Positions 12,418-64,000 of a DNA stretch of 64,000 nt are shown in pieces. The stretch lies in contig JABWCL010000020.1 in assembly GCA_013360295.1 (NCBI GenBank), positions 1 to 64,000 on the forward strand. The letters are read 5' to 3'. The translations under genes and the position numbers were made by a program. Within the stretch, counting starts at the first letter, position 1; each line of letters begins with the position of its first letter. Below the pieces are notes generated by a model. That model was given only the letters and a program-made list of their open reading frames with translations. It was not told where the DNA came from and ran no database searches. Origin of the DNA: Ignavibacteriaceae bacterium (lineage in GTDB: Bacteria > Bacteroidota > Ignavibacteria > Ignavibacteriales > Ignavibacteriaceae).

Positions 12418-13347
12418 ATGAAATACCTTCTTATTACATTTTTTATAGCTCAGTTGGGCTTTGCTCAGAGCGCTTTTAATTTCCTCCGGGTTGATGTCAG
12501 CCCCAGGGCCGGTGCAATGGCCGGAAGTTTTGTGGCAACAGTGGATGACCCTGATGTTATTTTTTATAATCCGGCAGGAATTAAAGACCTCTCAGGAGTA
12601 CCGGTCTCCTTCACTTATACAAAACACCTCCTGGATATGAATATGACCGCCCTCTCTGCGTCTTATGAGTTTAAGAATATTGGTAGGTTCGGCCTGGGAA
12701 TCAAATATGCTAATTATGGAGACTTCACTGAATACGATGAGTACGGAAATCAGTTTGGAGAATACGGTGCCGGCGACCTCGCTTTATTAGTCGGATATGC
12801 AAACGAGATCAGCGAGAATTTCAATTATGGTGTTAACGCGAAATATGTTTACTCTTCAATAGCAGGATATTCTTCGACCGCATTAGCAGGAGATATCGGA
12901 GTTATGTACCTGATCCCGGGCGAGAGGCTGAACATAGGCTTTGCAGTGATGAATGTTGGTACACAACTACAGTCCTATATCGCCTCGGAAGAGGAACTCC
13001 CTCTGGATGTTGTTTTTGGTATTTCAAAGCGGTTGCTCTATCTTCCTCTCCAGTTCCATGTTGACTTCCACAGGCTTAACAGGTCATCTGAGGGTTCTAT
13101 AACATCAAGGCTCAAATCATTTACTTTCGGAGCCGAGTTTACTCTGAGCAAAGTTCTGAAATTAAGATTTGGTTATGATAATGAAAAAAGAAGTGAGCTT
13201 AAAGTCGGAAGTTTCGCGGGATTAGCAGGCTTTAATTTTGGAGTCGGATTCAATGTTAAGGACTATACATTTAACTACGCCTATTCCTCATTCGGTGAAA
13301 TAGGCGCGCTTCACAGAATCGGTGTAAACAGCACTTTTAGCTTCTAA
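12418..13347 (+). CDS. PorV/PorQ-family outer-membrane beta-barrel protein
   Basis: This 309-residue protein has a signal peptide (MKYLLITFFIAQLGFAQ) and a FadL-like barrel. The mature start FLRVDVSPRAGAMAGSFVATVDDPDVIFYNPAGI is the signature of PorV/PorQ proteins, which shuttle or hold T9SS substrates at the outer membrane near the PorU sortase. Alternating hydrophobic strands follow, to a terminal Phe (STFSF). It stands alone, after the dnaJ operon and convergent with a TPR gene, not beside porU as in some genomes. Many Ignavibacteria-like genomes carry several such paralogues, so it need not be the true PorV. Confidence 0.82.
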   Translation: MKYLLITFFIAQLGFAQSAFNFLRVDVSPRAGAMAGSFVATVDDPDVIFYNPAGIKDLSGVPVSFTYTKHLLDMNMTALSASYEFKNIGRFGLGIKYANYGDFTEYDEYGNQFGEYGAGDLALLVGYANEISENFNYGVNAKYVYSSIAGYSSTALAGDIGVMYLIPGERLNIGFAVMNVGTQLQSYIASEEELPLDVVFGISKRLLYLPLQFHVDFHRLNRSSEGSITSRLKSFTFGAEFTLSKVLKLRFGYDNEKRSELKVGSFAGLAGFNFGVGFNVKDYTFNYAYSSFGEIGALHRIGVNSTFSF

Positions 13348-24418: not shown

Positions 24419-27400
24419 TCAGGGTTGAATTGATATCCTGACATCCAGACCCGCCTCGTTGATGGTCGTAGGAGGTATCCTCGCCGCTCCCTCAGGTTCA
24501 GTGGTGGATCGTTTATAGAATATTGAAAGAGATACCCTGGAACTAATAATATACTTCACACGCGGTTCAAGCGAGGTTCGTGTTGTTCCGTCCTGCGGTG
24601 TGCCATTCTCATCAAATTTATTCATATCGAAAATAACCGTCGAGTTCTTTGTGTTCGTATAGGAGAATGAAAACTCGATATCGTTCTTAAGTGATATTCC
24701 GAAAAGTGGCACTTCAAATCCCGACTTCGAATAGTTAACACTAATACCAACGTCCCTGGAAAAACCTTCAGTAACATTCTTCGTCGTGACGCTGAGATCA
24801 TAGCTGTTCCTTGTCGAGTATTTGACGCTGCCGGTTAGATTACCCTCCCACAGGGTATTGAATGTTATGTTCATTCCAAGCAACGGCTGGAATCCATATG
24901 AGATCTTCTGACTTTGTGTCACCTGAGTTCCATCAGGATTAAGTTTCCATCCTTCAGTGTATTCTGAACTATAAGAATGGTCAAGGGAGACACGCTTTGT
25001 ATAATTCTGGAAGAATGTAAATTTTTCAATTCCGTCCCAGGTTATTCTCCAGTTAGGCCTCGGAATATAGTTCATAAATTCCTGCATAAAACCAAACTTA
25101 GAAAGTACCGGCATTGTCTCAAAACCGCTGACAAAAGCCTGGCTCAGGTTTTCAGCAGGATCCGGAGCTTTGGGATTATACTTGGCAGCAACCTCCTTTA
25201 TTCCGCTCTTAAATACACTGAGGAAAAATACCGGAGGAATCGTTAGAAATGAACGGTTCAGGCTTCCTGTGGAGGTAATGTTTGTGACATTCATATTACC
25301 AAGGCTGTCGGTAACAATTGATTTGCTCTTATTCATAGACCAGCCAACTTTCCAGTTCACGTCAATCCTTGCGCCTTCCCAAAGGGGACGTGCAGTCTTC
25401 AGATCAATTGAATTCCTTTGCGAGAAGTTATCACTGAGATTTCCTTTTAGTGCTCTTGGCCCAACGTCATTACTCAAGCCAAGCATAAACGCACGGTTAG
25501 GTCCCATATCAGGACGGTACAAATAACCCCAGAAATTATTGAAACCGGTACCGACACCGCGTACACCGGATGCGGACAAAGAGTTGTCGTTACTAACTCC
25601 GAAGGAAATGCTTTCATAATCAACGATAGCATATTTAAATACCATTTTGAAAAAGCTGAATGCACGCGTCAGAGAAGAGGGTTTAGCTGCAACTGTATCA
25701 GCAGGCACATCAGTGATCACGGCTCCGGTGCTATCTGTTACATCTTTCTTAACTTCACCACCGTCCAAACCGGCACGATTTCTTGGGTCTCTCGCAGGCT
25801 GCTGAACCTGACTTTTCTGATCTGTGGTTGTTTCTCCGAAAAGTGGTTCCATAAGCGCTTTCCAACGGACAGTAAGCGATCCGTTTATTCTGTTATTATA
25901 ACCGGCGCTTCTTCCGAGATCTTCCTGCTGGAAATTGTTCTGCCAGGAATAACGGACGTTATAGCCAAGACTAATCGTAAAGTTCTTCCCTATGTTCCAG
26001 ATGGAAGGGAGTTTAGGAGATGTCTTAACATCAAATGTCTGATTAAAATTGTAATCTCTTCCGAAGAAATCTTTTGTTAAAACATCTTTCCAGATCCGGC
26101 TTTCAGGCCTTTCAAATCCTGTCTGGTCAAGTTCAAGATAAGCGAGGGTTGAAACAGCATCAAAAGAATATGAAGTGGATACGTTAAAGAAACCACCCTC
26201 CGTGATCTTCCAGTTGAAACTGAATCCCCTTGTTGTCGAGAAATCTCTTGACACTCGGGAGTCAGAAGTAGTCGTAAGAGTCGGACGGGTAATATTTTCA
26301 TTCCGGTTCCTTTTCGCGGTCATATTATAACTGAAACTCTGAGGCGCATAATAAATTTTCAGATTCTTATAATCCGTGAACCAGGTAATGAAATCACCGA
26401 CATAAGGAATATTCGCGGGATAAAATGAATAGTCTGGGCTCAGATTCACAGCGTAGTTCATATTCCCGTTCCAGACCCATCCCATATTAGCCAGTGTAGA
26501 CGGATTTCTGCTGAACGTTTTATTGTAGGTGAAGCCAAAAGTCATCGAATTAAAAGTATCGCGAATAAGCCAGTGATTACTCGGGATCTTTATTTTAATA
26601 TTGCTCAGAGTATAGGAATCCGAGATATTAACGGTTTGTGCATCTGATGCTAACTGGTTGACAGTTTTATCAATTTCTTCCTGGCTAAGTGTGTTCTGCG
26701 ATTCCAGTTTCTGTTTCATCTGATCCTGTGCCTCGGATATCCTGATATCAGTGCTTGGAAGATAGAGCGGCTTGCCGACAGATTCAGTGCGCGAATAATT
26801 TAACCTCAGGTTGCTTCCCTGTGAATTTACCGGAAGTAACTTGAGCAGATCGATATCAGCGGAAAAGCCCCAGTTCCTCGCTTCCGTCCTCGATCCGAAT
26901 CTCTCGGCTAACCTGTGGAAGTACGGATCCGTCTCGGCAATATTAAAATTCAGGGTCATAATATCAGCGAACTTGACCGAAGTTGATGCGCTGTAAGCCC
27001 AACCCGGAGTATCATCCGCACCGATAACCCTCAACTCATTGACCCAAACCTCACCACTTGTTATTCCCGTTCCGTTCGGGGGAGGGATTTCATCATAACG
27101 GTTCTGGACACCTACGGAGAGAAATTTCACCTGTGTAAGGGTTGGATTGCCTTTGATCAGATAATAGCTTCCCGGCTGATCGGTAACGGGCAATTTGAAT
27201 ACTGCATTCGCCGAATCTCTTGTCTGCTTGATGGCTGTGAGATCCTTAAACGGAATTGTAATCTCTTGCCAGTCCGGTTGTAATGGTTTCCTGAATTCAT
27301 AATAGTTATTGGAATCAGTACCGAATCTGAAATATACATCGGTGGCGTGATTAGTAATACTCTCGAAATAAGATATACTATTCCAATCTGGATTAATGTC

Positions 27401-30400
27401 ACCGTGTATAAAAAGTTTCATCTCCTTGTAATTAAAAACATCGAGAGGCCGGAGGAGGTTTTTAACAGCCTCTCTCTTTTCACCCTGGCGAAGTTCTTTA
27501 AGAATCAGGTTTAAGGACTGCTCATTCCTGAATATCTCCTGATCAGGGCGGCTTCTGTCACGTTCCCTTTGCACCCCTGACGGGCTTGAGTAATCAGGGT
27601 TATCTTCGATATTAACAACTGAAACTGACAGAACTGAGTCATTTGGCAAAACTTTATACCACTGGCTTCCAACCAGATTAAATTCAGTTAACCTGAAGTG
27701 CACTCTTTGGTCAACACCTGTTACGAACAGCCTGATCATTTCCACAACAGAAAAACTGGCACCGCCTATTTCTTTAGTGAAATCTTTCAAAGGTATTCGG
27801 TAAAGATACCAGCCTTTATCATTATTACCTCCGGCTAAATAAGGATTAACAAGCCTGTTTGTATCGAGAGGAATTTCATACCTGAAATAACTGTTTACTT
27901 CGTCTACGGAACCGTTCCGGTTGAGATCTTCCGTGTCCGGAATTCTGCCTGCATCAGTCAGAGCGGCATTCCCCTCAGTGCCATTTATGTTAAAATAATC
28001 GTCCGCTGTAGCGCCTATACCACCACGATACACAAAATTATCACGGCTTGGATCGGGATCGCTGTTGCCTACAAACGCCCGCTCGGCATCATCACTCAAT
28101 CCGTCTAAACCAACATCTTCCCCGACATCCACAAGGTCATTCCTGTTTTTATCCTCAGTATCAAGTCTTCCGTTCGGAATTACATCTTCACTTATCTTAC
28201 CGAGGTCAATGTATAACTTAGCGTTGGAAGGGGCCTGATCTATATTCATCCAAAACTCAATGAATTCAATATTCTCGTCAATAAGATTACTGGCAGTTGT
28301 AGATAACATTTTCATCATACCGCCCCAAGCAAGTTTTCTGTCTGAAAGATTGGGGTTATAGTTGTACGTTCCTGCAGTATCAGGCTGGTACACATAATCA
28401 AGCACAGAAACTGCTTCATCACCTTTGGCTACACGCTTCTCCGGCCATATGTCTCTTACATCAACGTCAGATGGCAACACGCTGAACCACCAGCTCTTCC
28501 CTTTGTAGTTCATTCTGTCAAGTGCTCTGAGGGTGTCAATACGATCATCAAAAAGCCGTGGGACGCTCAGGTCTTTCCAGGCAGTATATCCGATACCTAC
28601 GGGGATAATCCTCTTTGTTCCCTCAAAATCATCTATATAAGCTATGCTCTTTCCGCCATCTGATTGAATAGTCGATTTCTTTGTATTAGGATCGGGGCTC
28701 ATATATGCAAATTCACCCCTGAGGTTGAACGTACTCATTTCTTTGGTTGAAAATACTTTATCCAGTGCCCTGGTCAGAAACGGCATATCAGCAGAAGTAC
28801 TGAAATCAACACCATAGATAGAGTTGCTCAATGGTTCTTCACCAATACGTACTTTATCGCTAAGCGTTTGTTCTGTAAGAGTGAGCGCTGAGAAACCGAT
28901 GGTGGTGCGTTTAGATAGATCAAAGACGCCGCGCAGGCCAAACAGAGTCTTCGACGCGATCTGGAAAAGATCATTTTCCTCGTAACTGATCCGGAGATTT
29001 GCGCCCGGCACCAGTGCAGCCTCATTTCTGATAGTCAGCGTTCCGATGTTATAATCAACAAAATAGTCGACTCCCGGGGTAAGGTCTCTGCCGTTCAATG
29101 AAACTTTTACGGAATTTTCGACAACGTTAAAACCGAGTTGATAACTGGCAGTTACGCTGCCGGTATAAGTACCGCTTAATATAAATTTATCTTTTATTCT
29201 ATTGTTCTTTGCTCCGACGGTTGAAGTATCGTAAACATCCAGATAACGCAGGGAATCCGCGTTTGGGATCGATTGAGGGATGTTCCTTCCGAAGGGTTCA
29301 AGAACGGGAAATATTATTTCTCCGGTCTCAGGAATGATGTTCCTGCCGGCCGTATAATCGAAAATACCATCGCCCGGCGGGGAACCGTTAACATCAACTT
29401 CATCAAATCCAAAGGCGCTAAGAAGTCTTGTGGTTCCGACAACTGATTGAGGTTCCTGACCTTCAACTTCGTACTTCAGGTCAAACTGGAAACCTTCTTT
29501 TTTAATGTCACGGCCGCCAATAGAGTAAATGTTCTTTAGCATAAGACGCCAAGCGGTTCTATCCGAAGGCTGAAGGTTTTTAGGTTTCACCAACTTCAGT
29601 ATTAATCTCTTTGTCGTGGAAGTATCAGAAGGATTAAGGAATTCACCGAAAAACTGATCGTCCTCAAAGCCAGGAAGATCATTATCAATTGTATAAGAAA
29701 CCGCGATTATATCAGTTTCTAGTATGTTTGTCTTAAACGTCAGAACCCCGGTATAGGGATTGAGTATGTAATCCTTGTCCTTTGTCAAACGGAGGAACCT
29801 GCCCTTAGCAATCCTCCCCTGCACTTCTTCTATCCCGTCACTGCGTAGGTTGTCCGGGTAGGTCTGATTTCTTGCGATAGGCGGAAGCGTGATGTAAGCA
29901 TTCACAAGCCTCTCATTAGGGTTATTAAGGGTCTGGTTAATAGATTTCCAGACTTCTATATCTTTAACATAATACTTCTGGATCGTTATAGGTGTCGCGC
30001 TGCCGTAATACTTATTAAAAATATTCAGGTCGGCTGAAGTGTCCGCATAAACTGAATCGAGGAAAAAATGGTTCGTTGAATAATCATAGGCTCTCTTGGT
30101 AAAAGTCGATGTTGTAGAACCCCCGCTTACAGTCTTCTCTTTTACTTCACCCTTCTTCTGGCTGGCAAGCATCGTTAAGTTCAGGGGACCCATTTTAAAC
30201 TGGGCTTTAACTCCAAAAAGTGCTTCACTGCCTCCGACGAGTCCTGATGTCTGTAGTGATACGTTCCCCGCTTCGACGCTTTGCACAATTTCGTCTTCAT
30301 ATCCGGTATACTTGATCTTAAGCTGGTTTTCATACTCAAAAGTTCTTTCTGTATTCCAGTCCGCGGTAATTTGCAGTTTATCACCAATTGTACCGTTAAC

Positions 30401-31330
30401 ATTTATCTGTACCTGCTGCCGGAAATCAGGTTCATTCCTCGTGTTTCCAAGTCCTGAAGCCGTAATACCCTCAGTCGTCTCATTCCGCCAGGCACCGTGT
30501 ATGTCGACTGCCCCGCCAATATTAAGCTTGATCTTCGGTGCGCCGAAAATACTTAGTATTCCAACGCTTGGCAGCGGTATTTCGAAATCGGTGATATCCC
30601 TGATAAGCCCGGTAAGGTCCTTCTTTCCGCTCTTTAACTCATACTTATCATTCAATTCCTCCCATAGTTTTTGTTCCTTTGACCTCAGGGCCACATTCAG
30701 ATACTCATCGATCGGAATCTTCAGAGGTAATTTAGTCTTCTGCCCCGAAACAGTTTCCGAAACTTCCACGTACTTCCCCGTTGAATCAATTTTTATTTCA
30801 CGCTTTTTATTCGTCGGTTCTACAAAGAATTTAGATCCTTTCGGCTCATAAAAGCGCATATATGGACGGTCGCGCCTAACATATTTAAAGTATTGCTGAC
30901 GTGCTGTAGAGTCAAGTTTGAGGCTATCAATTTTAACAGTATCGGTTGCCTGGGTGAGTTTTAATGAGTCAAGTATTCCTGTGGTATCAATAACGGAGAG
31001 AGAGTCATCAGTAGGTTTGAGCGTATCATCAGGGAAGTGGCTAACCCTGTCCTCAAAATTAAACATCCCCTCAGCTGGAATTATCGTTCCCGCGGTTAAT
31101 TCAGAGGGCTGAGGAGGTCTTGCAAAATTTTCGGTCCCGCTAAGGGAAATGTGTTGTGTGTTCAGTTTGGAGTAATATTCGAATACGCCATCGAACCACA
31201 AATCCCTGTTAACCTTGACTGGTTTATGCAGAGTAAACCCAAAGGTGAAGAGAATTCCCAGAACAGTAAACCCCGGGAGGACGACTGGGAGGATACACAA
31301 CTTAAAGAATGACTTAAAAAACGATTTAAT
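24419..31330 (-). CDS. sprA: T9SS outer-membrane translocon protein SprA
   Basis: This giant protein of about 2300 residues forms the very large beta-barrel pore of the type IX secretion system. Length and repeated segments fit the family: a repeated N-terminal SprA domain (PLPSVGILSIFGAPKIKLNIGG, ATPITIQKYYVKDIEVW, VLTFKTNILETDIIAVSYT), a second copy region (TVGAKNNRIKDKFILSG, VSLNGRDLTPGVDYFVDYNIGTL), YRIPLKDFTKEIG, VWVNELRVIG, and a long strand-rich barrel to the C-terminus. The first ordinary start is TTG at 31300, but this gives a signal peptide without positive charge. Ten codons earlier ATT at 31330 follows AGGAA by 5 bases and adds IKSFFKSFFK, a proper basic n-region, so ATT may be the real start. 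Confidence 0.95.
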   Translation of the reverse strand: MKSFFKSFFKLCILPVVLPGFTVLGILFTFGFTLHKPVKVNRDLWFDGVFEYYSKLNTQHISLSGTENFARPPQPSELTAGTIIPAEGMFNFEDRVSHFPDDTLKPTDDSLSVIDTTGILDSLKLTQATDTVKIDSLKLDSTARQQYFKYVRRDRPYMRFYEPKGSKFFVEPTNKKREIKIDSTGKYVEVSETVSGQKTKLPLKIPIDEYLNVALRSKEQKLWEELNDKYELKSGKKDLTGLIRDITDFEIPLPSVGILSIFGAPKIKLNIGGAVDIHGAWRNETTEGITASGLGNTRNEPDFRQQVQINVNGTIGDKLQITADWNTERTFEYENQLKIKYTGYEDEIVQSVEAGNVSLQTSGLVGGSEALFGVKAQFKMGPLNLTMLASQKKGEVKEKTVSGGSTTSTFTKRAYDYSTNHFFLDSVYADTSADLNIFNKYYGSATPITIQKYYVKDIEVWKSINQTLNNPNERLVNAYITLPPIARNQTYPDNLRSDGIEEVQGRIAKGRFLRLTKDKDYILNPYTGVLTFKTNILETDIIAVSYTIDNDLPGFEDDQFFGEFLNPSDTSTTKRLILKLVKPKNLQPSDRTAWRLMLKNIYSIGGRDIKKEGFQFDLKYEVEGQEPQSVVGTTRLLSAFGFDEVDVNGSPPGDGIFDYTAGRNIIPETGEIIFPVLEPFGRNIPQSIPNADSLRYLDVYDTSTVGAKNNRIKDKFILSGTYTGSVTASYQLGFNVVENSVKVSLNGRDLTPGVDYFVDYNIGTLTIRNEAALVPGANLRISYEENDLFQIASKTLFGLRGVFDLSKRTTIGFSALTLTEQTLSDKVRIGEEPLSNSIYGVDFSTSADMPFLTRALDKVFSTKEMSTFNLRGEFAYMSPDPNTKKSTIQSDGGKSIAYIDDFEGTKRIIPVGIGYTAWKDLSVPRLFDDRIDTLRALDRMNYKGKSWWFSVLPSDVDVRDIWPEKRVAKGDEAVSVLDYVYQPDTAGTYNYNPNLSDRKLAWGGMMKMLSTTASNLIDENIEFIEFWMNIDQAPSNAKLYIDLGKISEDVIPNGRLDTEDKNRNDLVDVGEDVGLDGLSDDAERAFVGNSDPDPSRDNFVYRGGIGATADDYFNINGTEGNAALTDAGRIPDTEDLNRNGSVDEVNSYFRYEIPLDTNRLVNPYLAGGNNDKGWYLYRIPLKDFTKEIGGASFSVVEMIRLFVTGVDQRVHFRLTEFNLVGSQWYKVLPNDSVLSVSVVNIEDNPDYSSPSGVQRERDRSRPDQEIFRNEQSLNLILKELRQGEKREAVKNLLRPLDVFNYKEMKLFIHGDINPDWNSISYFESITNHATDVYFRFGTDSNNYYEFRKPLQPDWQEITIPFKDLTAIKQTRDSANAVFKLPVTDQPGSYYLIKGNPTLTQVKFLSVGVQNRYDEIPPPNGTGITSGEVWVNELRVIGADDTPGWAYSASTSVKFADIMTLNFNIAETDPYFHRLAERFGSRTEARNWGFSADIDLLKLLPVNSQGSNLRLNYSRTESVGKPLYLPSTDIRISEAQDQMKQKLESQNTLSQEEIDKTVNQLASDAQTVNISDSYTLSNIKIKIPSNHWLIRDTFNSMTFGFTYNKTFSRNPSTLANMGWVWNGNMNYAVNLSPDYSFYPANIPYVGDFITWFTDYKNLKIYYAPQSFSYNMTAKRNRNENITRPTLTTTSDSRVSRDFSTTRGFSFNWKITEGGFFNVSTSYSFDAVSTLAYLELDQTGFERPESRIWKDVLTKDFFGRDYNFNQTFDVKTSPKLPSIWNIGKNFTISLGYNVRYSWQNNFQQEDLGRSAGYNNRINGSLTVRWKALMEPLFGETTTDQKSQVQQPARDPRNRAGLDGGEVKKDVTDSTGAVITDVPADTVAAKPSSLTRAFSFFKMVFKYAIVDYESISFGVSNDNSLSASGVRGVGTGFNNFWGYLYRPDMGPNRAFMLGLSNDVGPRALKGNLSDNFSQRNSIDLKTARPLWEGARIDVNWKVGWSMNKSKSIVTDSLGNMNVTNITSTGSLNRSFLTIPPVFFLSVFKSGIKEVAAKYNPKAPDPAENLSQAFVSGFETMPVLSKFGFMQEFMNYIPRPNWRITWDGIEKFTFFQNYTKRVSLDHSYSSEYTEGWKLNPDGTQVTQSQKISYGFQPLLGMNITFNTLWEGNLTGSVKYSTRNSYDLSVTTKNVTEGFSRDVGISVNYSKSGFEVPLFGISLKNDIEFSFSYTNTKNSTVIFDMNKFDENGTPQDGTTRTSLEPRVKYIISSRVSLSIFYKRSTTEPEGAARIPPTTINEAGLDVRISIQP

Positions 31331-53566: not shown

Positions 53567-55966
<2,400 letters not shown>

Positions 55967-55989
55967 TTAGTACCTTGTATCATTTAATT

Positions 55990-56250
55990 TAGCCAGATAA
56001 GATATTAAATTAAGAGGTGCTATTCAAGGTCTGGAATAAGTAGTATTGTCAGAGGTTCTGCTATTTTAGCATAAACAATGGATTGTGAATATAACCACGG
56101 GAAAATCCCGTCAAGGTGAACGACCGGCATATTACCCATAAACTATCGGAATTGAATAATTCCCCAATAAACGCTTCCACAATTTGGCAACTGTGGCGAT
56201 TACCCCAATAAAATTACCCTGCCACAAGAAATGATCAAACTTCTGAAGTG
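55990..56250. other. Unassigned intergenic block with coding-like composition
   Basis: This gap between the methyltransferase and lon genes is visibly richer in G and C than the other gaps in the window, such as 56938-57160. On the minus strand it holds a 39-codon frame from ATG 56139 to TAG 56020 (MGNMPVVHLDGIFPWLYSQS at its start, IPDLE at its end). A second open stretch without an ordinary start ends at the TAA at 56132-56134 and includes LWQGNFIGVIATVAKLWK. The sequence CCCCAATAAA occurs twice. It could be a decayed gene, a dispersed intergenic repeat or a structured RNA; I cannot assign it. The lon promoter must also lie here. Confidence 0.4.
56097..56111. repeat. Short perfect palindrome upstream of lon
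   Basis: ACGGGA-AAA-TCCCGT is a perfect 6-base inverted repeat with a 3-base spacer, about 130 bases before the lon start. On the minus strand TTGACG begins just upstream and TATATT follows, with a 15-base gap that is too short for a normal promoter. It may be an operator or simply part of the unassigned block. Confidence 0.4.
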
Positions 56251-56937
56251 TTATTTCCGCGCAATCCCAATCATAAAATAGTGATGCGACGAGGAAAAGA
56301 GTTTATTAAATATAGCTCTATCAATTGAACCAAGAAATTGTCTTTGGGATTCAGTCCGCCCCATCCCGCCTAAGAATCCAGCAGTCATAAATTTGAAATC
56401 CGAAAATATCGAAACAAACTCCATCATATCTTCTAACGGGGTATAGCGTACTGATTTGCCGTGAGGAACAAAATTTCTTCTGAGAAATTGGTGAACCGGC
56501 GAACCCTTGATATTTTCGGCGAACATAAATTCGCCTCCTTTTTTAAGGCTTTTGTGTATCTGCTCAACCGCTGTTCTCTGGGCATCTTTATTATCATGGT
56601 GGCCCAGCGATGCCAGGACTGATTTTATGACAACAATATCAAACTTGTTCTCGTAGGGAATGCTCAAAGCATTAACTGATCCGTAGTCGATCCTATCCGA
56701 TACTTTATATGCGTCATGCTTCTTCGAGGCAACATCGACCGGGGAATCAACATCAGTGCAGAATACCTTCCCTCCTTTCTGAGCAAACCAGAGAGAGAGC
56801 CCTCCCCTCTTGCCACCGATTTCCATCGTGTAGGTTTGGCTAAGCTCCTGAGCAGTATTCTTTTCCCAAAACTCTAATGCGAGCGACCAGTTTGTTACAT
56901 CCCATTCTATTATGTCGTTTAGCAGTTCTTTTGTCAT
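56251..56937 (-). CDS. Class I SAM-dependent methyltransferase
   Basis: This 228-residue protein has the Rossmann-type methyltransferase fold. Motif I is MEIGGKRGGLSLWFA, motif II VFCTDVDSP, a later strand is FDIVVIKSVLAS, and LKKGGEFMFAENI is the post-loop. MEIGGxxGGLSL with a C-terminal HHYFMIGIARK is a form common in small methyltransferases near surface-polysaccharide genes, but the substrate is unknown. No signal peptide. It stands alone between lon and the sortase gene, with gaps of about 270 bases on either side. Confidence 0.87.
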   Translation of the reverse strand: MTKELLNDIIEWDVTNWSLALEFWEKNTAQELSQTYTMEIGGKRGGLSLWFAQKGGKVFCTDVDSPVDVASKKHDAYKVSDRIDYGSVNALSIPYENKFDIVVIKSVLASLGHHDNKDAQRTAVEQIHKSLKKGGEFMFAENIKGSPVHQFLRRNFVPHGKSVRYTPLEDMMEFVSIFSDFKFMTAGFLGGMGRTESQRQFLGSIDRAIFNKLFSSSHHYFMIGIARK

Positions 56938-57166
56938 CAGTTAATTTCTTGTCAAAGTTTTCAAAAATCAATTATGAATATAATAAATTAATCCAAAGTA
57001 GAGCGCTGTAGAACTAGCTGAACATCTGAATTTGTGAAGCAAATGATATAGATTTTAAAGTGTGGAAGAACTCTTAAACATTATTAAATACTGATGGTAT
57101 TGTGCTTTGTCCGATATGAAAAGTCTCAGGGTAATGATCATGACTTTTAAAATTACCGGATTTGAT

Positions 57167-57201
57167 AACGAGGGGTGACGCGGGAATCATCACCCCTCGT
57201 T
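57167..57201 (-). terminator. Hairpin after the PorU-like gene
   Basis: A perfect 12-base stem (AACGAGGGGTGA with TCACCCCTCGTT) encloses an 11-base loop, starting 4 bases after the sortase TAG stop. On the minus strand no long T run follows, so it may stop transcription weakly or only protect the 3' end. Confidence 0.65.
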
Positions 57202-57205
57202 CAAT

Positions 57206-60200
57206 CTACCTTACCCTCACGATCTTATCTATCTTTGTCTTCGTGACATCACCGAATTTGGTTACGAGTTTATATAGGTATACACCGTTTGCAATCTCAT
57301 TCCCATCCTGGTCACGGCCATCCCACCTTATCCGGTTAAAATTGAGTGAAAGCTGGCTTCTTTCGGGTTTAATTTCCCTGATGAGCCTGCCGGCAATCGT
57401 ATATACCCTGATGGTCATTTCATCCGGCATGTTAGAACCTCTCAATTCAAAGGTGAAGTAAGTATCATCCTTAAAAGGATTAGGATAATTATAGATGTTT
57501 GCAATATCATCCTTATCAAATACAAAGAAAGTATTCCTGAAAAATGTCGTATCAAAAAAGTTGCCGGAAGCGTCTTTAGCTAGGATATCGAGAGTATGAC
57601 GCCCCATTGTCAGTACAGGCTTCCAAGTGATTATCATTTCAGTATTTGGGTACTGAACGGTTGTGACGTTAATGTCCGGCCTCGAAAATGATAACGGCAC
57701 ATTATCATAAAGAATAGTAAAATAAGATGTATCCAGCGGAAGCGGGCTGTCATCTTTAAGAGATATTTTTATTTCCGGTGTTTTAGAGACGATATCGCCG
57801 TTTATTATCTCCTTATCATCAAAGGTTATTCTGAACAGTGGATTTATACTATCCCTTGCAACAAAAAATTCCCTGGACAAAATGTTGTTAAATGTAAATC
57901 TTTCTGGATTAGGATAACGGACGATCGCCTTAACAGTGTGATTAAAAATATAGGGTGCCGTATTTAATTCAAATGTATTAACCGCGAAAGAATCGGCTTT
58001 CACATCCAGCGTTTGAGCGTGAAAAACCGAATCACCACCGTCAATAAAAAACTCAATCCTCGCGCTGTCGGCATCGGATGACTGCATATTCCGCACCGTG
58101 TACGTCATCGTAATCGGTAATCCCTGGAGTAAAGAATCCGGAGCGAAAGAAAGATCGTTCAGAGTCATCACCAACTCAGGATAGTTGGTATATTCAACCG
58201 ACAATCCGCGGAGTTCGATCGGGTTCACTGAATTGAAAGAGGAATCGATTAACTGAAGGCTAAACTTAACCTGCGGATAAACTGAATTATCAATACCGGT
58301 CATATCGAAAGAATCCGGGAGATTCACATAAAGGGTATCCCATATCCGTGCATTTTTGTTATAACCGAACATCAGCATACTCGCGATATTCTGAGATGTT
58401 TTATTTCCGATTGAAAACTTTGATGTCTTCCATCTTTGGGCCGGCCCGATCGCGGGTGTACTCACTACGCCTTTTGCGTCAATATACCTTGCCGGGAATT
58501 TCGTCACAACGCGCCTTTGAAAAATTCCTGGCCGATAGATAGCGCCATATACATAGTCGTTCTTCGTATCAATTGCCCATCCGTAATACCTGATAAGATT
58601 ATTCGGATTTTCATTATAACCCGGAATCCATTCCTGCTCGAAGAATCCGTCACTTATACGAATCCTGCGCATAAATCCGCTATACAGGTTTTCATAAGGA
58701 TAGAAGAATCCGTCGGCTACAAAGAAATAGGTAAATGGATTATAACTGCTGATCAGCGGGTAATAATGAGAAGCGACTCTCCTCATGCCATCAAGCGGAT
58801 CATAAACATTAAGAGTATACCGGTAAGTTCCGGGACTGTTAACGCTGTCTTTGAATGCAAGACAGTAAATAAAATTGCTATCAGAAGATATTGTAAAATT
58901 ACCTGTTTTAACTTTGCCAGATTCGGAATCAATCAATCCCAGCGGAACATCAACTATTTCCTTAGCCCCCGTTTCTACATCAACTTTGAGAATTTTGTAG
59001 GGGTCTACTGTTGGAACATAGATATGTCCTGTTCTGAAATATGCAAACGTATTCCCTACCCTCTCCTGAAAGTTTGGAACTTCACCGTAAAATTGTCCCG
59101 CGACCGTTCCCTCTTCACCGGTACCAACTTTATAAATCTTTGTCCTCCCGAGTGAATCACCGTAATAGTAAATCATCCAGTAAAACATATTACCGATGTA
59201 AAGATATTTCCCATCAGTAGTCATAATACTCATACCGAAGTTTGAGAAAAGAACTGAGTCCAGTTGAGTATCAGAAATCATTCTTTCCCTGCCAGGTTTG
59301 GGAGGCAATAGGCTTGTGTTAAGAGCCAGGGTCTGCCTTTCCTGAAGAAAATTTAGGTTTTCAGTATTGAACATTTGAAGTTGATTACCTGAAATAAAGT
59401 AACCTGAATTACGGTCGGTACCAAGAGTAAAGGTTTTTGTAGGCGTCCATTTACCAAAATTCTGGCCGTCGTAAATTCTTGATCTCCAGAAATAAACACC
59501 CGCTGATAATCCGGTAGGAGTATATTTTATTACACCGTCGGTACTAACAAGCGCTGGTGTTTTAACAACTGGCTGATTAAACGAAATACTTGTATCTATT
59601 TCAATATAGTATTCCAGAGTTTTATTTGTATAAAGACCTATATCAGCAATAAAAAATTCAGGAGATGAGGCCGCGAATTTCTCACCGTCCAGCGGTTTTA
59701 TTATACTCGGTTCCGAAATATTAAAAACAGCAAGCGAGTAAGTAGCGCTGTTATCACTATAGTCAATCTCGGGAATAGAATCGACCAGATTTATTTCCGC
59801 TTTAAGTTCAGTCAAACCGCCCGCTACAGGCTTCCAGTTGATAACAAGAGAATCGCGGTTCGGAAATACCTTTATCCTCCTCGTTTCCAGAATGGCACTT
59901 GTGTCGGGTGTGGAGAAACTTAACCTTACGGAGACGGAATCATTAACCTGTATTCCAAAATTCGAGAACCTGATCGTAACATCAACGGAGTCACCGATTA
60001 CGGGATTTGTCTGGGATACGGTTATGTCGGCGTTTTTAATCACAAAATCGGGTTTATCCGGCAATGCCAGTTTGAAAAGCGGATCACCCAGGAAGGTGAG
60101 TAAAGCTATCTGGTTACCGTAATACCCGATTGGCGGAGTCTGCAATTTTGATTTTAAAACTGCTCTTCCAGAAATATAATCTTTCTTGATAAATGTAAAA

Positions 60201-62968
60201 TCAAAAATCAATTGGTTTATGTATTTCCCAATCTCCCAGTGAGTCAATCCGGAACTGCCAAAGAATCCAATACTTCCTTTTCCAGGAACCTTTATAAACT
60301 GCTCGCCAAATACATCCTGGTTATCAAAATGGGCAGTATAGCAGGTAACACTTAAAACAAGAGGGAGCCTTGACTCGTTCTGAAGAACGTATATATCCTC
60401 ATTAAGAAAAGTCAGATCCCATTGATAACCTCCGCCGTGTCCGTAATAATTCACAACTGAGGCACCGGTATTTATAGCCTCCCTGATTTCCTGGGTGCTT
60501 CCCCTGTACTGAAAATGTTCTGGCCTGTTAGGGTACCTGAAAATCATTTTCGGATCATAACCCTGTGGAATTACAAATCCGTTTGCAAGGCTGATGGATG
60601 CATCATTAAATCCAAACCGGATCTCATCATCATTGTTCAAGCCTGAAGCAAGCATTAAGACTGTTTCTCTCCATTTTTTTCCGGCATCAGCAGGGTAATT
60701 CTCCAGTTTATCCATGAGGATGTTCCCCTCTTCTACTGTTTCAATGGACAATCTCGCAATGGTCATTTCCGGCCAGACATCATCTCCCGCGACGCATACC
60801 AACGCGTTATCACTCGCAGCTTCCCCATATGTATATGAGTGATGCGACAATGAGGGAATATAATTTTTCCGGCTGGCAGGCTTTAATCCTCTGTAATCAT
60901 AACTCATATCCCCGATCAGAGCTACATAGGCTGGTGCGGGAGCCTGATAGTTTTCAAAAGAATATTTCAGATAGTCTCTTATAGCAGCTGGCTCTAATAG
61001 TCCGTCGGAAAATTCATCATAGATATCCTGAATATCAACAATTTTTATTCTGGGGTTTGTAATAGTATTATCAGTCCAGTTATTCAGCCTGAAATTCTTA
61101 TATCGATCGGCAACCGAAGTAAACTTTGAGTGAATTATGACCAGGAGGTCGGCTCCGGGTTGGTTATTCCGAAGATTTGAACTTATATCCGCCCGTATCG
61201 AATCCACCTGCATATAAAAATTGGAACCGGCACAATAATATTGGGTGGGAGCCAAAGCAGTATCGGCAAAAATAAATGTTTTATCCTCGTCATTCAGGAA
61301 ATGAACTGAATCTATTATCTCTAATCTGCCGGGTATATAAATATTCACTTTAGGATCATTCCACTGCCAGATTCTGTAAAAATTAACACCGACAGTTGAC
61401 GAAGAGTTATTAAAATTATAATTATCTCCAAATACTCTGTTCTGGCTGAAATAAGTGAATTCAAACCAGTTGACCCTTATTTCATCACTGCTGTCCGGAT
61501 GACATACTCTCCCATCCACTTCGACCGTGAGATAGTTACCGCTGGGATACAAAGGGAAACTGTCTACAGATATATAAAAATTTCTCTCAAATATATACTC
61601 TTGCTGGCCCGACCACCATGCTTCTCCAAGTAATTTATCATTAAAAAGAATCCTGGCGTGATGCCCGTAGGTACAGCTTGTAACGGTCATACCGTGCATG
61701 CTTACGCGCATAGTTACGTTCGGGAATGACATCGAGAAATTTTGAAATGGCTGAAACTGTCCTCTGAAAGCATAAGTCGCATTCCCCCTGTTGCCTGTTG
61801 CCTTATCCCAGTACCAATGGTCTCTATTGGCATCATCGGCGTATCCTAACCGCTCATACAGAGAATCCTTCTCGTAAAAGTCTGTTTTCAGGTAACCGAA
61901 TAAGTTATATGATGGTACGCCGGAAGGAATCCCGTGTTTCCTTTTATACCGGGGTGAGGTACCGTCGCCATCGAAAGTAATCCACATTACGTTAGTGGTA
62001 TTATAAATGTTCTGCCTTGTATATTCGGAAGGAGGAAGTTTATAAGCAACAAATTGAATATAATCGCCTGAATTGAAAATAGTATCAGTCCCTGTGTTAA
62101 CATCAAGCGGAACTGATGCCCCATTAACTACAACCTCAATTTTTGACGGATCTATCCCGGATCCTATTGACGCTCCTGCAGCAATCATTTCTGCATAAGT
62201 TACGCGATAGACCCCTTCTTTATTATAAAACATTTTAAAGTACCTTTTGCTGGGATCAAACCAGGAATTCAATGAAGGTGTATTCCTGGTATTCGTCACT
62301 TTCCCGATCCATTTTGAGGCCTGATTGGGATTAATAACTGAAGTCTGTAATATTTCTTCTGTCAAGGGGTCTGACACAGGTATAACCCCCGTTGCTGCCA
62401 ATGGGTCACCATTATAATCAATTCTAACCCTGACCTTAGAATATGATACTAACTCGCGAAGAACCGGATTGTACTGAACAGGCGAGACAAAAACCGGAAG
62501 AATCCTGGCAAATCTCATTCTGCCTTCAGCTCCCAGTTCTGCTGGCACTGCCGGGAATAGTTTGTTACTTCCGTAAATATTCCTGTCAAACTTTTCCTTA
62601 TCATATTTCTCAAAGTATCCTTCGTTATCCGGATAAGGAGGGATCATAATATTCGCAAATTTTTTGGTGCCGGAATACGAATATGAAAGAGTCGGAACTG
62701 CGTTCTGGGGAATAGCTACACTGTGAAACACCTGAGGCAGCCACGGTTCCCCGGGATTGCGAAACGAAAACATATCGGATTTGATAAAACTGAATTTTGC
62801 CCCATCTATTAAAGTATCCTTTAATTTGAAGGATTCGGAAAAATTAAATTCGATCTCAATAAAGCGATCATTCGATTCAATTATTCTGTAATTCTGTGAT
62901 CTGGCGGGAGAAAAAAACAACAATGTAATAACAAGAAACAGGGATATTTTGCTCGTCATTCGTTCCAT
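57206..62968 (-). CDS. porU: T9SS C25-family sortase, PorU-like, unusually long
   Basis: This 1920-residue protein has a signal peptide (about residues 1-24) and a long N-terminal region (25-600). A gingipain-like C25 domain (about 605-970) holds the catalytic His844 in NYYGHGGGYQW and Cys876 in LSVTCYTAHF. A CARDB-like domain (about 970-1080), a fibronectin-like module, a propeller-like region (about 1200-1480), a sandwich, a second CARDB-like region (about 1590-1690) and a FlgD-Ig/sorting-type C-terminus (YNYPNPFKDDTYF to KIDKIVRVR) follow. PorU cuts sorting domains from T9SS cargo and joins cargo to LPS. Known PorU proteins such as that of Porphyromonas are nearer 1160 residues. It could instead be a separate secreted C25 peptidase. 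Confidence 0.8.
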   Translation of the reverse strand: MERMTSKISLFLVITLLFFSPARSQNYRIIESNDRFIEIEFNFSESFKLKDTLIDGAKFSFIKSDMFSFRNPGEPWLPQVFHSVAIPQNAVPTLSYSYSGTKKFANIMIPPYPDNEGYFEKYDKEKFDRNIYGSNKLFPAVPAELGAEGRMRFARILPVFVSPVQYNPVLRELVSYSKVRVRIDYNGDPLAATGVIPVSDPLTEEILQTSVINPNQASKWIGKVTNTRNTPSLNSWFDPSKRYFKMFYNKEGVYRVTYAEMIAAGASIGSGIDPSKIEVVVNGASVPLDVNTGTDTIFNSGDYIQFVAYKLPPSEYTRQNIYNTTNVMWITFDGDGTSPRYKRKHGIPSGVPSYNLFGYLKTDFYEKDSLYERLGYADDANRDHWYWDKATGNRGNATYAFRGQFQPFQNFSMSFPNVTMRVSMHGMTVTSCTYGHHARILFNDKLLGEAWWSGQQEYIFERNFYISVDSFPLYPSGNYLTVEVDGRVCHPDSSDEIRVNWFEFTYFSQNRVFGDNYNFNNSSSTVGVNFYRIWQWNDPKVNIYIPGRLEIIDSVHFLNDEDKTFIFADTALAPTQYYCAGSNFYMQVDSIRADISSNLRNNQPGADLLVIIHSKFTSVADRYKNFRLNNWTDNTITNPRIKIVDIQDIYDEFSDGLLEPAAIRDYLKYSFENYQAPAPAYVALIGDMSYDYRGLKPASRKNYIPSLSHHSYTYGEAASDNALVCVAGDDVWPEMTIARLSIETVEEGNILMDKLENYPADAGKKWRETVLMLASGLNNDDEIRFGFNDASISLANGFVIPQGYDPKMIFRYPNRPEHFQYRGSTQEIREAINTGASVVNYYGHGGGYQWDLTFLNEDIYVLQNESRLPLVLSVTCYTAHFDNQDVFGEQFIKVPGKGSIGFFGSSGLTHWEIGKYINQLIFDFTFIKKDYISGRAVLKSKLQTPPIGYYGNQIALLTFLGDPLFKLALPDKPDFVIKNADITVSQTNPVIGDSVDVTIRFSNFGIQVNDSVSVRLSFSTPDTSAILETRRIKVFPNRDSLVINWKPVAGGLTELKAEINLVDSIPEIDYSDNSATYSLAVFNISEPSIIKPLDGEKFAASSPEFFIADIGLYTNKTLEYYIEIDTSISFNQPVVKTPALVSTDGVIKYTPTGLSAGVYFWRSRIYDGQNFGKWTPTKTFTLGTDRNSGYFISGNQLQMFNTENLNFLQERQTLALNTSLLPPKPGRERMISDTQLDSVLFSNFGMSIMTTDGKYLYIGNMFYWMIYYYGDSLGRTKIYKVGTGEEGTVAGQFYGEVPNFQERVGNTFAYFRTGHIYVPTVDPYKILKVDVETGAKEIVDVPLGLIDSESGKVKTGNFTISSDSNFIYCLAFKDSVNSPGTYRYTLNVYDPLDGMRRVASHYYPLISSYNPFTYFFVADGFFYPYENLYSGFMRRIRISDGFFEQEWIPGYNENPNNLIRYYGWAIDTKNDYVYGAIYRPGIFQRRVVTKFPARYIDAKGVVSTPAIGPAQRWKTSKFSIGNKTSQNIASMLMFGYNKNARIWDTLYVNLPDSFDMTGIDNSVYPQVKFSLQLIDSSFNSVNPIELRGLSVEYTNYPELVMTLNDLSFAPDSLLQGLPITMTYTVRNMQSSDADSARIEFFIDGGDSVFHAQTLDVKADSFAVNTFELNTAPYIFNHTVKAIVRYPNPERFTFNNILSREFFVARDSINPLFRITFDDKEIINGDIVSKTPEIKISLKDDSPLPLDTSYFTILYDNVPLSFSRPDINVTTVQYPNTEMIITWKPVLTMGRHTLDILAKDASGNFFDTTFFRNTFFVFDKDDIANIYNYPNPFKDDTYFTFELRGSNMPDEMTIRVYTIAGRLIREIKPERSQLSLNFNRIRWDGRDQDGNEIANGVYLYKLVTKFGDVTKTKIDKIVRVR

Positions 62969-63057
62969 CTAATATTTTAATAAAAAATAAGTTATTAAAC
63001 GCAGTCCGCGCCTGCAAGTGCAAAAAAATTACAATACGGATAAATAGTAAAACTATC

Positions 63058-64000
63058 TTATAAAAATCCGTAGGATAGTGAAACAAAGAGTATCCTGCTG
63101 AATCGCCGTGTGGCGGAGGATGACGCGGAAAATTGTATGTAGGAGGAGAGAGTCAAATTATAGGATAAGTAATAGCTTCCCTTGAGAAAAAAAGTCCTGG
63201 TTATTTCCAATTCACCGTCCAGAAGCGGAGTGCTTGCCGGTGTAAAATAATCGTAACTGAACCTTATATCACCACCGACGTTGCGAATTAAAGTGCCTGA
63301 CGAATCGACAACATTTGCACCGTGTTTCACTAACCTGAAACCGGTTTCAGCCAGTAGTCTTGGGAAAATAAATCCCTTCAGACCGATAGTATAGGAAACA
63401 GAATTAGGTTCTAATGAAGCTCCCAGTTTATAGCCATTATTTGTATAAGCGGTAGTCTCATTGAAACCGGGGTGACTGAGCGTGTAAGGGCGGATAAGTG
63501 TGTATTCAGCGAAAAAATCAAAACCTGCGGGGAGGAGGGGATTGCTTATTAAAAGATTTACCTGAACAGCGCTTCTGTTTGATTTGGTATCAAATCCCTC
63601 GCTGAAATAATTCCCGAAATGAATATCATCGAGCATTAGAGTTGAACTGACTTCCAGCCCATTAACCGGAACACTGCTTATGTCGAAGGTTAAAAATGAG
63701 TTATCAATATCATTCAATGATCTTTGCGCGGATTCCCAGAATAAAAATGGATTCAGGTAGGCGGCTTCAAATGGCCTTCCGCCATAAATCACGGACTGGG
63801 CAACTCCTATCCCAAAGAGTCTTGAGGGCGAGTATCCCAGCCGGCTGACTGCAACATGCTTCGGTAATTTCAGTTTAAGTTTATTTATTGAATCCGGATA
63901 GGTTTCAGTTATTCCCACGACAAGCCAGCCGTGTAAAAACGTATAACGGAGATTTTTGTAGCCGATATTAAAATTGAAATAATCAAATATTTGCCCCTCG
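63058..64000 (-). CDS. Outer-membrane beta-barrel, Wzi capsule assembly-like (partial, 5' end outside window)
   Basis: The frame is open to the right edge. The first ordinary start inside is GTG at 63918, but coding clearly continues upstream (GYKNLRYTFLHGWLVVGITE). About 314 residues of the C-terminal part are visible. YTFLHGWLV, SRLFGIGVAQSVIYGG, FEAAYLNPFLFWES and SFLTFDISSVPVNG resemble the Wzi family of outer-membrane barrels, which hold capsule at the surface. The chain ends in an aromatic-rich strand (ILFVSLSYGFL). It lies upstream of the sortase gene on the same strand, with a gap of 89 bases. Confidence 0.7.
   Translation of the reverse strand, partial: EGQIFDYFNFNIGYKNLRYTFLHGWLVVGITETYPDSINKLKLKLPKHVAVSRLGYSPSRLFGIGVAQSVIYGGRPFEAAYLNPFLFWESAQRSLNDIDNSFLTFDISSVPVNGLEVSSTLMLDDIHFGNYFSEGFDTKSNRSAVQVNLLISNPLLPAGFDFFAEYTLIRPYTLSHPGFNETTAYTNNGYKLGASLEPNSVSYTIGLKGFIFPRLLAETGFRLVKHGANVVDSSGTLIRNVGGDIRFSYDYFTPASTPLLDGELEITRTFFLKGSYYLSYNLTLSSYIQFSASSSATRRFSRILFVSLSYGFL

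Follow-up and report, generated by a model that had tools for sequence, protein, structure and literature searches.

A C25 protein related to PorU and PorU2, with a predicted beta-propeller, encoded at the end of a polysaccharide cluster in Ignavibacteriaceae

The acceptor glycan of T9SS cargo, and the way in which it is selected, have been worked out in few species. Linking-sugar biosynthesis varies among T9SS species, P. intermedia having another linking sugar, and the authors of that study raised in 2025 the possibility of more than one linking-sugar pathway (PMC11969387). The window analysed here, which is the whole stretch of 64,000 nucleotides taken from an Ignavibacteriaceae contig, carries a large C25 protein as the terminal gene of a polysaccharide cluster, and it raises the question of whether this protein is a PorU-like sortase, a T9SS cargo protease or a surface protein with another role.

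Domain architecture and active site of the window protein

The window protein was encoded by an intact ORF of 1920 residues on the minus strand (57206..62968), and both this ORF and its catalytic residues His844 (60437..60439) and Cys876 (60341..60343), already proposed in the preliminary description, were confirmed by Pfam and by orthologs. A signal peptide was predicted by eye at residues 1-24 (62897..62968), with Met at residue 4 as a possible start. The first residue after it, Gln25 (62894-62896), was at least 90% conserved and resembled the Bacteroidetes Q-rule, which according to its authors is missing from the FCB group taken as a whole (PMC5837995). Next came a gingipain-type prodomain at about residues 25-188 (62405..62896), recognized by Propeptide_C25 at residues 64-186 with 45.6 bits and by the 5mun structure (Z 13.8 over 160 residues, rmsd 3.6), and a PorU/PorU2-type N-terminal beta region at residues 228-600 (61169..62287), matched by the PorU structure 6za2 and, from residue 241, by NF033707, of which profile positions 5-749 covered residues 241-984. 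Comparison of the model also placed a CBM36-like jelly roll at about 362-506 inside this region (CBM36, Z about 10). The caspase-like catalytic domain occupied residues 609-967 (60068..61144; Peptidase_C25, 215.9 bits; RgpB 4ief_B, Z 40.1 over 322 residues).

The preliminary description had also read CARDB-, fibronectin- and propeller-like parts behind the active site and had suggested a structure prediction of the C-terminal part. Two AlphaFold models were built from ortholog alignments, covering residues 20-975 (mean pLDDT 86.9) and 960-1920 (mean pLDDT 87.5, pTM 0.59), and the second of them, together with the Pfam match to CARDB, bore out these parts and revealed a five-bladed propeller and a second CARDB domain. 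All of them lie on the minus strand, in the following order: CARDB domain 1 at 972-1076 (59741..60055), with 24.6 bits against a Pfam cut-off of 22.7 and with the PDB CARDB sequences 3idu and 2kl6 at E 1.6e-4; an FN3-like beta sandwich at about 1080-1200 (59369..59731), recognized from the strand pattern of the model, with no family match; the five-bladed beta-propeller at about 1216-1503 (58460..59323); and CARDB domain 2 at 1592-1706 (57851..58195; 3idu_B, Z 14.7 over 108 residues, rmsd 2.6). The chain ended in a type A T9SS sorting domain at 1828-1913 (57230..57487), which contained the expected YNYPNPF motif and scored 26 bits with TIGR04183 (cut-off 23) and 20.2 bits with the Pfam family Por_Secre_tail, under its cut-off of 27. 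The FlgD-like part claimed earlier was present as a FlgD_ig match at 1832-1903, yet this match remained below its own cut-off (25.0 vs 27 bits).

The propeller resembled most closely glutaminyl cyclase 3mbr (Z 18.6 over 220 residues), a likeness of fold only, with 13% identity, and also an olfactomedin domain (Z 16.5); no PF05096 match, sought in relation to the cyclase reading, was found in the genome. The profile of the propeller matched none of 82 other C25 proteins, nor PorZ. PorZ was also missing from the VIA-align list obtained with the propeller model, an absence which carries no weight. The fold gives no means of telling a sortase from a protease, since the catalytic domain reached Z 40 with gingipains and the N-terminal half Z 21 with PorU (6za2: Z 21.3, rmsd 5.6, 587 residues, model residues 208-953). 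Residues 1705-1920 were also comparable with 6za2 (Z 10.7, rmsd 14.3, 193 residues).

His844 and Cys876 were kept in 41/41 orthologs of a first set and in 4/4 obtained later. Among 20 further ORFs, 17 had both residues, one (L236) had neither, and two were fragments not spanning both sites, so that every cluster-linked ortholog spanning the two positions retained them. Conservation reached its maximum at the active site (segment 841-880, mean 0.82), and the median identity of orthologs to the window protein was 56% for residues 601-970, equal to that of the CTD, vs 29-45% for the other segments. The complete propeller-bearing orthologs (n=50) measured 1875-1981 aa.

Relationship to PorU, PorU2, PorZ and gingipains

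The earlier reading of the protein as a PorU-like sortase had been set against characterised PorU proteins of about 1160 residues, a size in agreement with the PDB entry for PorU of P. gingivalis, whose chain has 1156 residues, and a second PorU of normal length had been named as the observation that would make the window protein a cargo peptidase. The genome (4.46 Mb, completeness 100%) contained four C25 ORFs, and one of them was indeed such a PorU, a 1339-aa protein on contig C34 with 975.4 bits to NF033707 (cut-off 420). The next gene encodes a PorV-family member (319.7 bits vs a cut-off of 90; 249.3 vs 250 for PorV proper), and an M6-like protein comes after it. The window protein shared with PorU the N-terminal region, the C25 His/Cys pair and the type A CTD, whereas it scored 268.6 bits, under the curated cut-off of 420, exceeded the PorU of its own genome by 581 residues, had no adjoining PorV gene and formed its own clade. 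The idea that it might be the only or main PorU of the genome was therefore ruled out by the PorU beside the PorV-family gene.

The remaining C25 ORFs were a PorU2-like protein of 1778 aa on contig C69 (378 bits vs 450 cut-off, ILEI domain present) and a gingipain-like protein of 1329 aa on contig C31, in which C25_C stood right behind C25 and the PorU/PorU2 N-terminal region was lacking; the genome thus carried three PorU/PorU2-type proteins. PorZ was encoded on contig C70 (362 bits vs cut-off 260). A PorU-PorZ fusion by descent was ruled out, because PorZ is encoded separately and the propeller profile had no match to it.

A tree of C25 domains, also suggested in the preliminary description, was built from 79 domains out of 154 rows, one of the three gingipain-like rows being long enough for inclusion. 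All 18 window-type proteins fell on one branch (100/100) and all 13 PorU on a separate one (100/99), so that the window protein stood apart from PorU, and the window type formed its own clade, neither PorU nor PorU2. The sister of this clade comprised PorU2 and class-level relatives (98/89), excluding the odd proteins L211 and L226, and the root was unsure, as the lone outgroup row had a long branch. Consequently, the earlier inference held insofar as the housekeeping PorU is another protein; that the window protein is an ordinary cargo peptidase does not follow, in view of its PorU/PorU2-type N-terminal region, its own clade beside PorU2 and the cluster linkage found in 54/57 loci.

The closest known family is PorU2 (NF052324, 'putative T9SS sortase PorU2'), whose function is itself putative. 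Like the window protein, PorU2 joins the N-terminal region, C25, CARDB, a beta-rich tail and the CTD in one chain, and the profile of the window-protein tail (1601-1820) matched 53/56 PorU2-type proteins, vs 1/22 PorU (15 bits). The N-terminal profile of the clade matched 40/56 PorU2-type proteins and 2/22 PorU. However, the window protein scored 196.4 bits, under the curated PorU2 cut-off of 450, and was sister to the PorU2 clade (98/89) instead of lying inside it. Moreover, all six PorU2-type proteins scanned presented an ILEI match after the catalytic domain (two over and four under the Pfam cut-off), while the window protein has the propeller and gave no Pfam match to ILEI at E up to 10. 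Taking ILEI as the defining feature of PorU2 is our reading and not a curated rule, and the position of the two modules is comparable in a loose sense, the positions in PorU2-type proteins not having been aligned to one another. In animals, GlcNAc is bound by FAM3/ILEI-type domains (PMC9802357); both modules, propeller and ILEI, may hold a glycan.

With PorZ (NF052228), the window protein shares the CTD and the concept of a propeller passing a glycan on to the sortase; its 32.8 bits were due to the CTD alone, vs a cut-off of 260, and it has five blades vs the two propellers of PorZ. The prodomain and C25 fold (Z 40) are common to the window protein and to gingipains and other C25 cargo peptidases; it differs from them in lacking C25_C after C25 and in carrying the PorU/PorU2 N-terminal region, the profile of which matched 0/3 gingipain-like proteins.

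With a profile of residues 975-1815, and counting split genes, the window type exceeded 200 bits in 61/80 genomes of its own family and in 10/84 genomes of the remainder of the order, and the family genomes G027, G045 and G105 gave weaker or partial matches. In a 395-genome sample of the phylum, order members included, the matches listed from outside the order covered only profile positions from about 493 on, i.e., the tail shared with PorU2. The window-type clade was seen in one Ignavibacteria order.

Polysaccharide linkage and natural losses of the propeller

The gene directly upstream of the window protein had been described as a Wzi-like barrel and not porV, and this held: it encodes a Wzi-like outer-membrane barrel of 554 aa on the minus strand (63058..64000, cut by the window edge; 63058-64722 on contig C30) with a PF14052 score of 24.6 bits, under the cut-off of 30.1, an ortholog scoring 27.0 and likewise remaining below it. 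The cluster, a surface-polysaccharide cluster of the Wzx/Wzy type, runs past the window edge (contig C30, 63058-77949) in the order Wzi-like, Bac_transf, GT2, GT4, Wzy, GT9, MurJ-like flippase, epimerase, Wzz, Wza and Wzc.

This arrangement was common among relatives, whose genomes likewise retain an ordinary PorU. Linkage was scored from the initiating sugar transferase, Wzi-like barrel, Polysacc_synt_2, Wzy and Wzx genes located upstream on the same strand, in a first set of 44 ortholog loci from which the window was excluded and of which the 41 with at least 1500 nt upstream were counted. Such initiation, assembly or barrel genes were present in 39/41 first-set loci and, according to the printed gene order, in 15/16 loci with enough upstream sequence out of 20 more, amounting to 54/57 for both sets combined; these loci came from related genomes, two of them near-identical, and are not independent trials. 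By contrast, in the same order none of 17 Ignavibacteria PorU2 loci and none of 21 PorU loci had them upstream on the same strand, in stretches which were shorter (about 3 kb). When any glycosyltransferase or DegT within 3 kb was counted as well, the figures were 39/41 for the window type, 8/17 for PorU2 and 0/21 for PorU; the polysaccharide-type genes upstream of PorU2 on the same strand, found in 8/17 loci in 3 kb and 9 in 7 kb, were mostly lone glycosyltransferases. Neighbours were called by BLAST to families first met in the loci of this clade, with few representatives checked by Pfam, and the calling could miss other polysaccharide families near PorU or PorU2. Some clusters lacked the Wzi-like gene, and in many the window-type gene was directly downstream of it. 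A GlmS-type gene was next downstream in 32/40 first-set loci and was absent there in the window genome.

Two or more kinds of polysaccharide gene upstream were rare in other PorU2-type loci (1/19 class-level and 3/20 other ORFs, counted with the same limited set of families, one ORF per set, two in total, not being C25). The PorU2-type genes L208, L215, L227 and L228, from other lineages, had polysaccharide genes upstream, and for this reason the link between C25 genes and polysaccharide genes may have arisen more than once. Searches of titles and abstract openings, with most subscription journals outside their range, retrieved no publication describing a PorU-like gene in a polysaccharide cluster, and a literature search on the name 'PorU2' retrieved nothing. 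Promoter and terminator scans of 55800-64000 gave sites no more numerous than in shuffled sequences.

The three exceptions to the linkage were L073, in which Wzi-like and Wzy genes lay on the opposite strand, L042 and L236. Propeller matches were obtained in 43/46 first-set ORFs, those without being L042 and both pieces of L059, all of genus g27. In the second set, L236 (genus g23) lacked exactly the propeller stretch, and L255 lacked the propeller owing to the end of its contig. A tree of residues 225-972 indicated two separate propeller losses (two changes across the bootstrap range), the g27 loss falling inside the group of the window protein itself and the g23 loss adjoining L232, which belongs to the same genus as L236 and kept the propeller, the His/Cys dyad and the cluster.

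The propeller-less genes were found in other surroundings. L042 (7086-12080) kept His/Cys with no polysaccharide gene upstream, GatB/GatE-type and GatD-type genes being located there on the opposite strand; since it keeps the dyad without the cluster, catalysis is not strictly tied to the cluster. L059 also kept His/Cys, in a gene split over two frames, and its upstream stretch of just 605 nt was too short for linkage to be scored. In L236 (6031-12828, genome G023), both the catalytic His and Cys were replaced in addition to the loss of the propeller, no polysaccharide gene was found upstream, and the prodomain was a separate ORF of 242 aa with two unassigned ORFs intervening; the genes before L236 encode a TonB-plug protein, a protein with a rhodanese domain and ORFs of unassigned family, and L236 may simply be decaying. 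An IS110-type transposase gene was also observed upstream of it, at 144-1214. Of four genomes searched for the initiating sugar transferase, G043, which is cluster-linked, was the only one with a close copy (53%); the matches in the propeller-less G023, G027 and G045 reached just 36-42%, and therefore their cluster version is absent or diverged. The Wzi-like barrel was found in 9/9 genomes searched, in G027 on a contig different from the one carrying the C25 gene. Both losses that could be checked thus combined a missing propeller with a position outside the cluster, and one of them also with the absence of His/Cys; two events are suggestive without amounting to proof.

Proposed role and alternative explanations

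Another role is expected for the window protein because PorU, with its PorV-family neighbour, and PorZ are encoded separately. The observed properties on which an assignment can draw are its architecture, conserved active site, clade, genomic context and the co-loss described above, and its gene position at the end of the cluster in nearly all sampled relatives suggests that the enzyme acts on the polymer made there. On balance, we lean slightly towards the window protein being a dedicated, glycan-specific second T9SS sortase, which would join CTD cargo to the cluster polymer or anchor this polymer, its propeller holding the glycan in cis. In such a mechanism, the protein would exit via the T9SS and remain on the surface, where the propeller would bind the polymer made by the neighbouring genes; the Cys/His centre would cleave the CTD from a subset of cargo, and the acyl-enzyme would be passed to an amino group of the polymer, so that capsule or EPS, and not the PorU glycan, would receive the surface proteins. 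A precedent exists in P. gingivalis, where PorZ, a protein of two propellers, binds A-LPS and brings it to PorU, and the meeting of both proteins is A-LPS-dependent (PMC8545088); the propeller of the window protein may be the in-cis counterpart of this in-trans role. That the extra part binds surface polysaccharide, one of the options of the preliminary description, has circumstantial support from the context, the propeller and the two propeller-less lineages outside the cluster. The glycan role has against it that five-bladed propellers have many functions and that the best structural match was a glutaminyl cyclase, and the sortase role has against it the scores below the curated cut-offs of PorU and PorU2, the few PorU (2/22) reached by the N-terminal profile of the clade, a catalytic domain closer to gingipains than the N-terminal half is to PorU, and the possession of a CTD, as in cargo. 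The tie to the polysaccharide is weakened by the clusters lacking a Wzi-like gene, by the polysaccharide-type genes upstream of 8/17 PorU2 loci and by L042, which keeps the dyad outside a cluster. PorU and PorZ retain a CTD in the mature protein.

That same CTD, together with the gingipain-like prodomain and the Z of 40 between the catalytic domain and RgpB, is what a T9SS cargo protease would also present, namely a C25 peptidase set free by PorU-dependent processing of its CTD and anchored on the surface, where it would trim surface proteins or those associated with the capsule; its cluster position would then reflect co-regulation with surface remodelling. Cargo is abundant in a genome with at least 150 CTD-bearing places, and L042 has the dyad without the cluster. 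Nevertheless, the gingipain-like protein of this genome has C25_C and no PorU/PorU2 N-terminal region, the window protein being the reverse, and neither the length range of the 50 orthologs (1875-1981 aa) nor linkage in 54/57 loci is expected of ordinary cargo, for which reasons this explanation appears unlikely. A further alternative is a surface anchor or organiser, in which the propeller, CARDB and jelly-roll parts would hold the polymer by the Wzi-like barrel and the catalytic site would serve self-processing only: the gene is directly downstream of the barrel in many clusters and the model contains numerous beta-sandwich modules, including the CBM36-like jelly roll (Z about 10), but conservation along the chain is highest at the active site and His/Cys are retained in all cluster-linked orthologs spanning them, so that this role is quite improbable. 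Finally, a redundant back-up of PorU, sharing both its cargo and its glycan acceptor, would agree with the shared T9SS and CTD type and with the three PorU/PorU2-type proteins of the genome; the separate clade (100/100), the different post-catalytic modules and a context found in 0/21 PorU loci make it the least probable of these explanations.

A broader version of the glycan-specific sortase is held here only tentatively, being possible and somewhat doubtful: the window type may represent a third Gram-negative sortase lineage beside PorU and PorU2, combining a transpeptidase and its own glycan-holding propeller in one chain, with the roles of PorU and PorZ in cis, and linked genetically to a capsule or EPS cluster of the Wzx/Wzy type. 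If so, a covalent bond would attach T9SS proteins, or the polymer itself, to the capsule, and parallel sortases would operate in one cell, each for a different surface glycan. In many genera, a gene of the sortase type is physically linked to a single polysaccharide pathway, and the ordinary PorU keeps its place next to the PorV-family gene. This makes the choice of acceptor a direct genetic question and offers a candidate route to protein-capsule coupling in Gram-negative bacteria.

Other T9SS genes were also observed. The genome has a very large T9SS repertoire, with sorting-tail matches in at least 150 places (150 among 301 candidates scored) and 13 PorV/PorQ-family genes over the cut-off. 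The window itself encodes a SprA-type protein of 2293 aa, the T9SS outer-membrane translocon (24419-31300, minus strand; PF14349, 174 bits), and a PorV-family barrel located apart from porU (12418-13347, plus strand; 199 bits vs cut-off 90).
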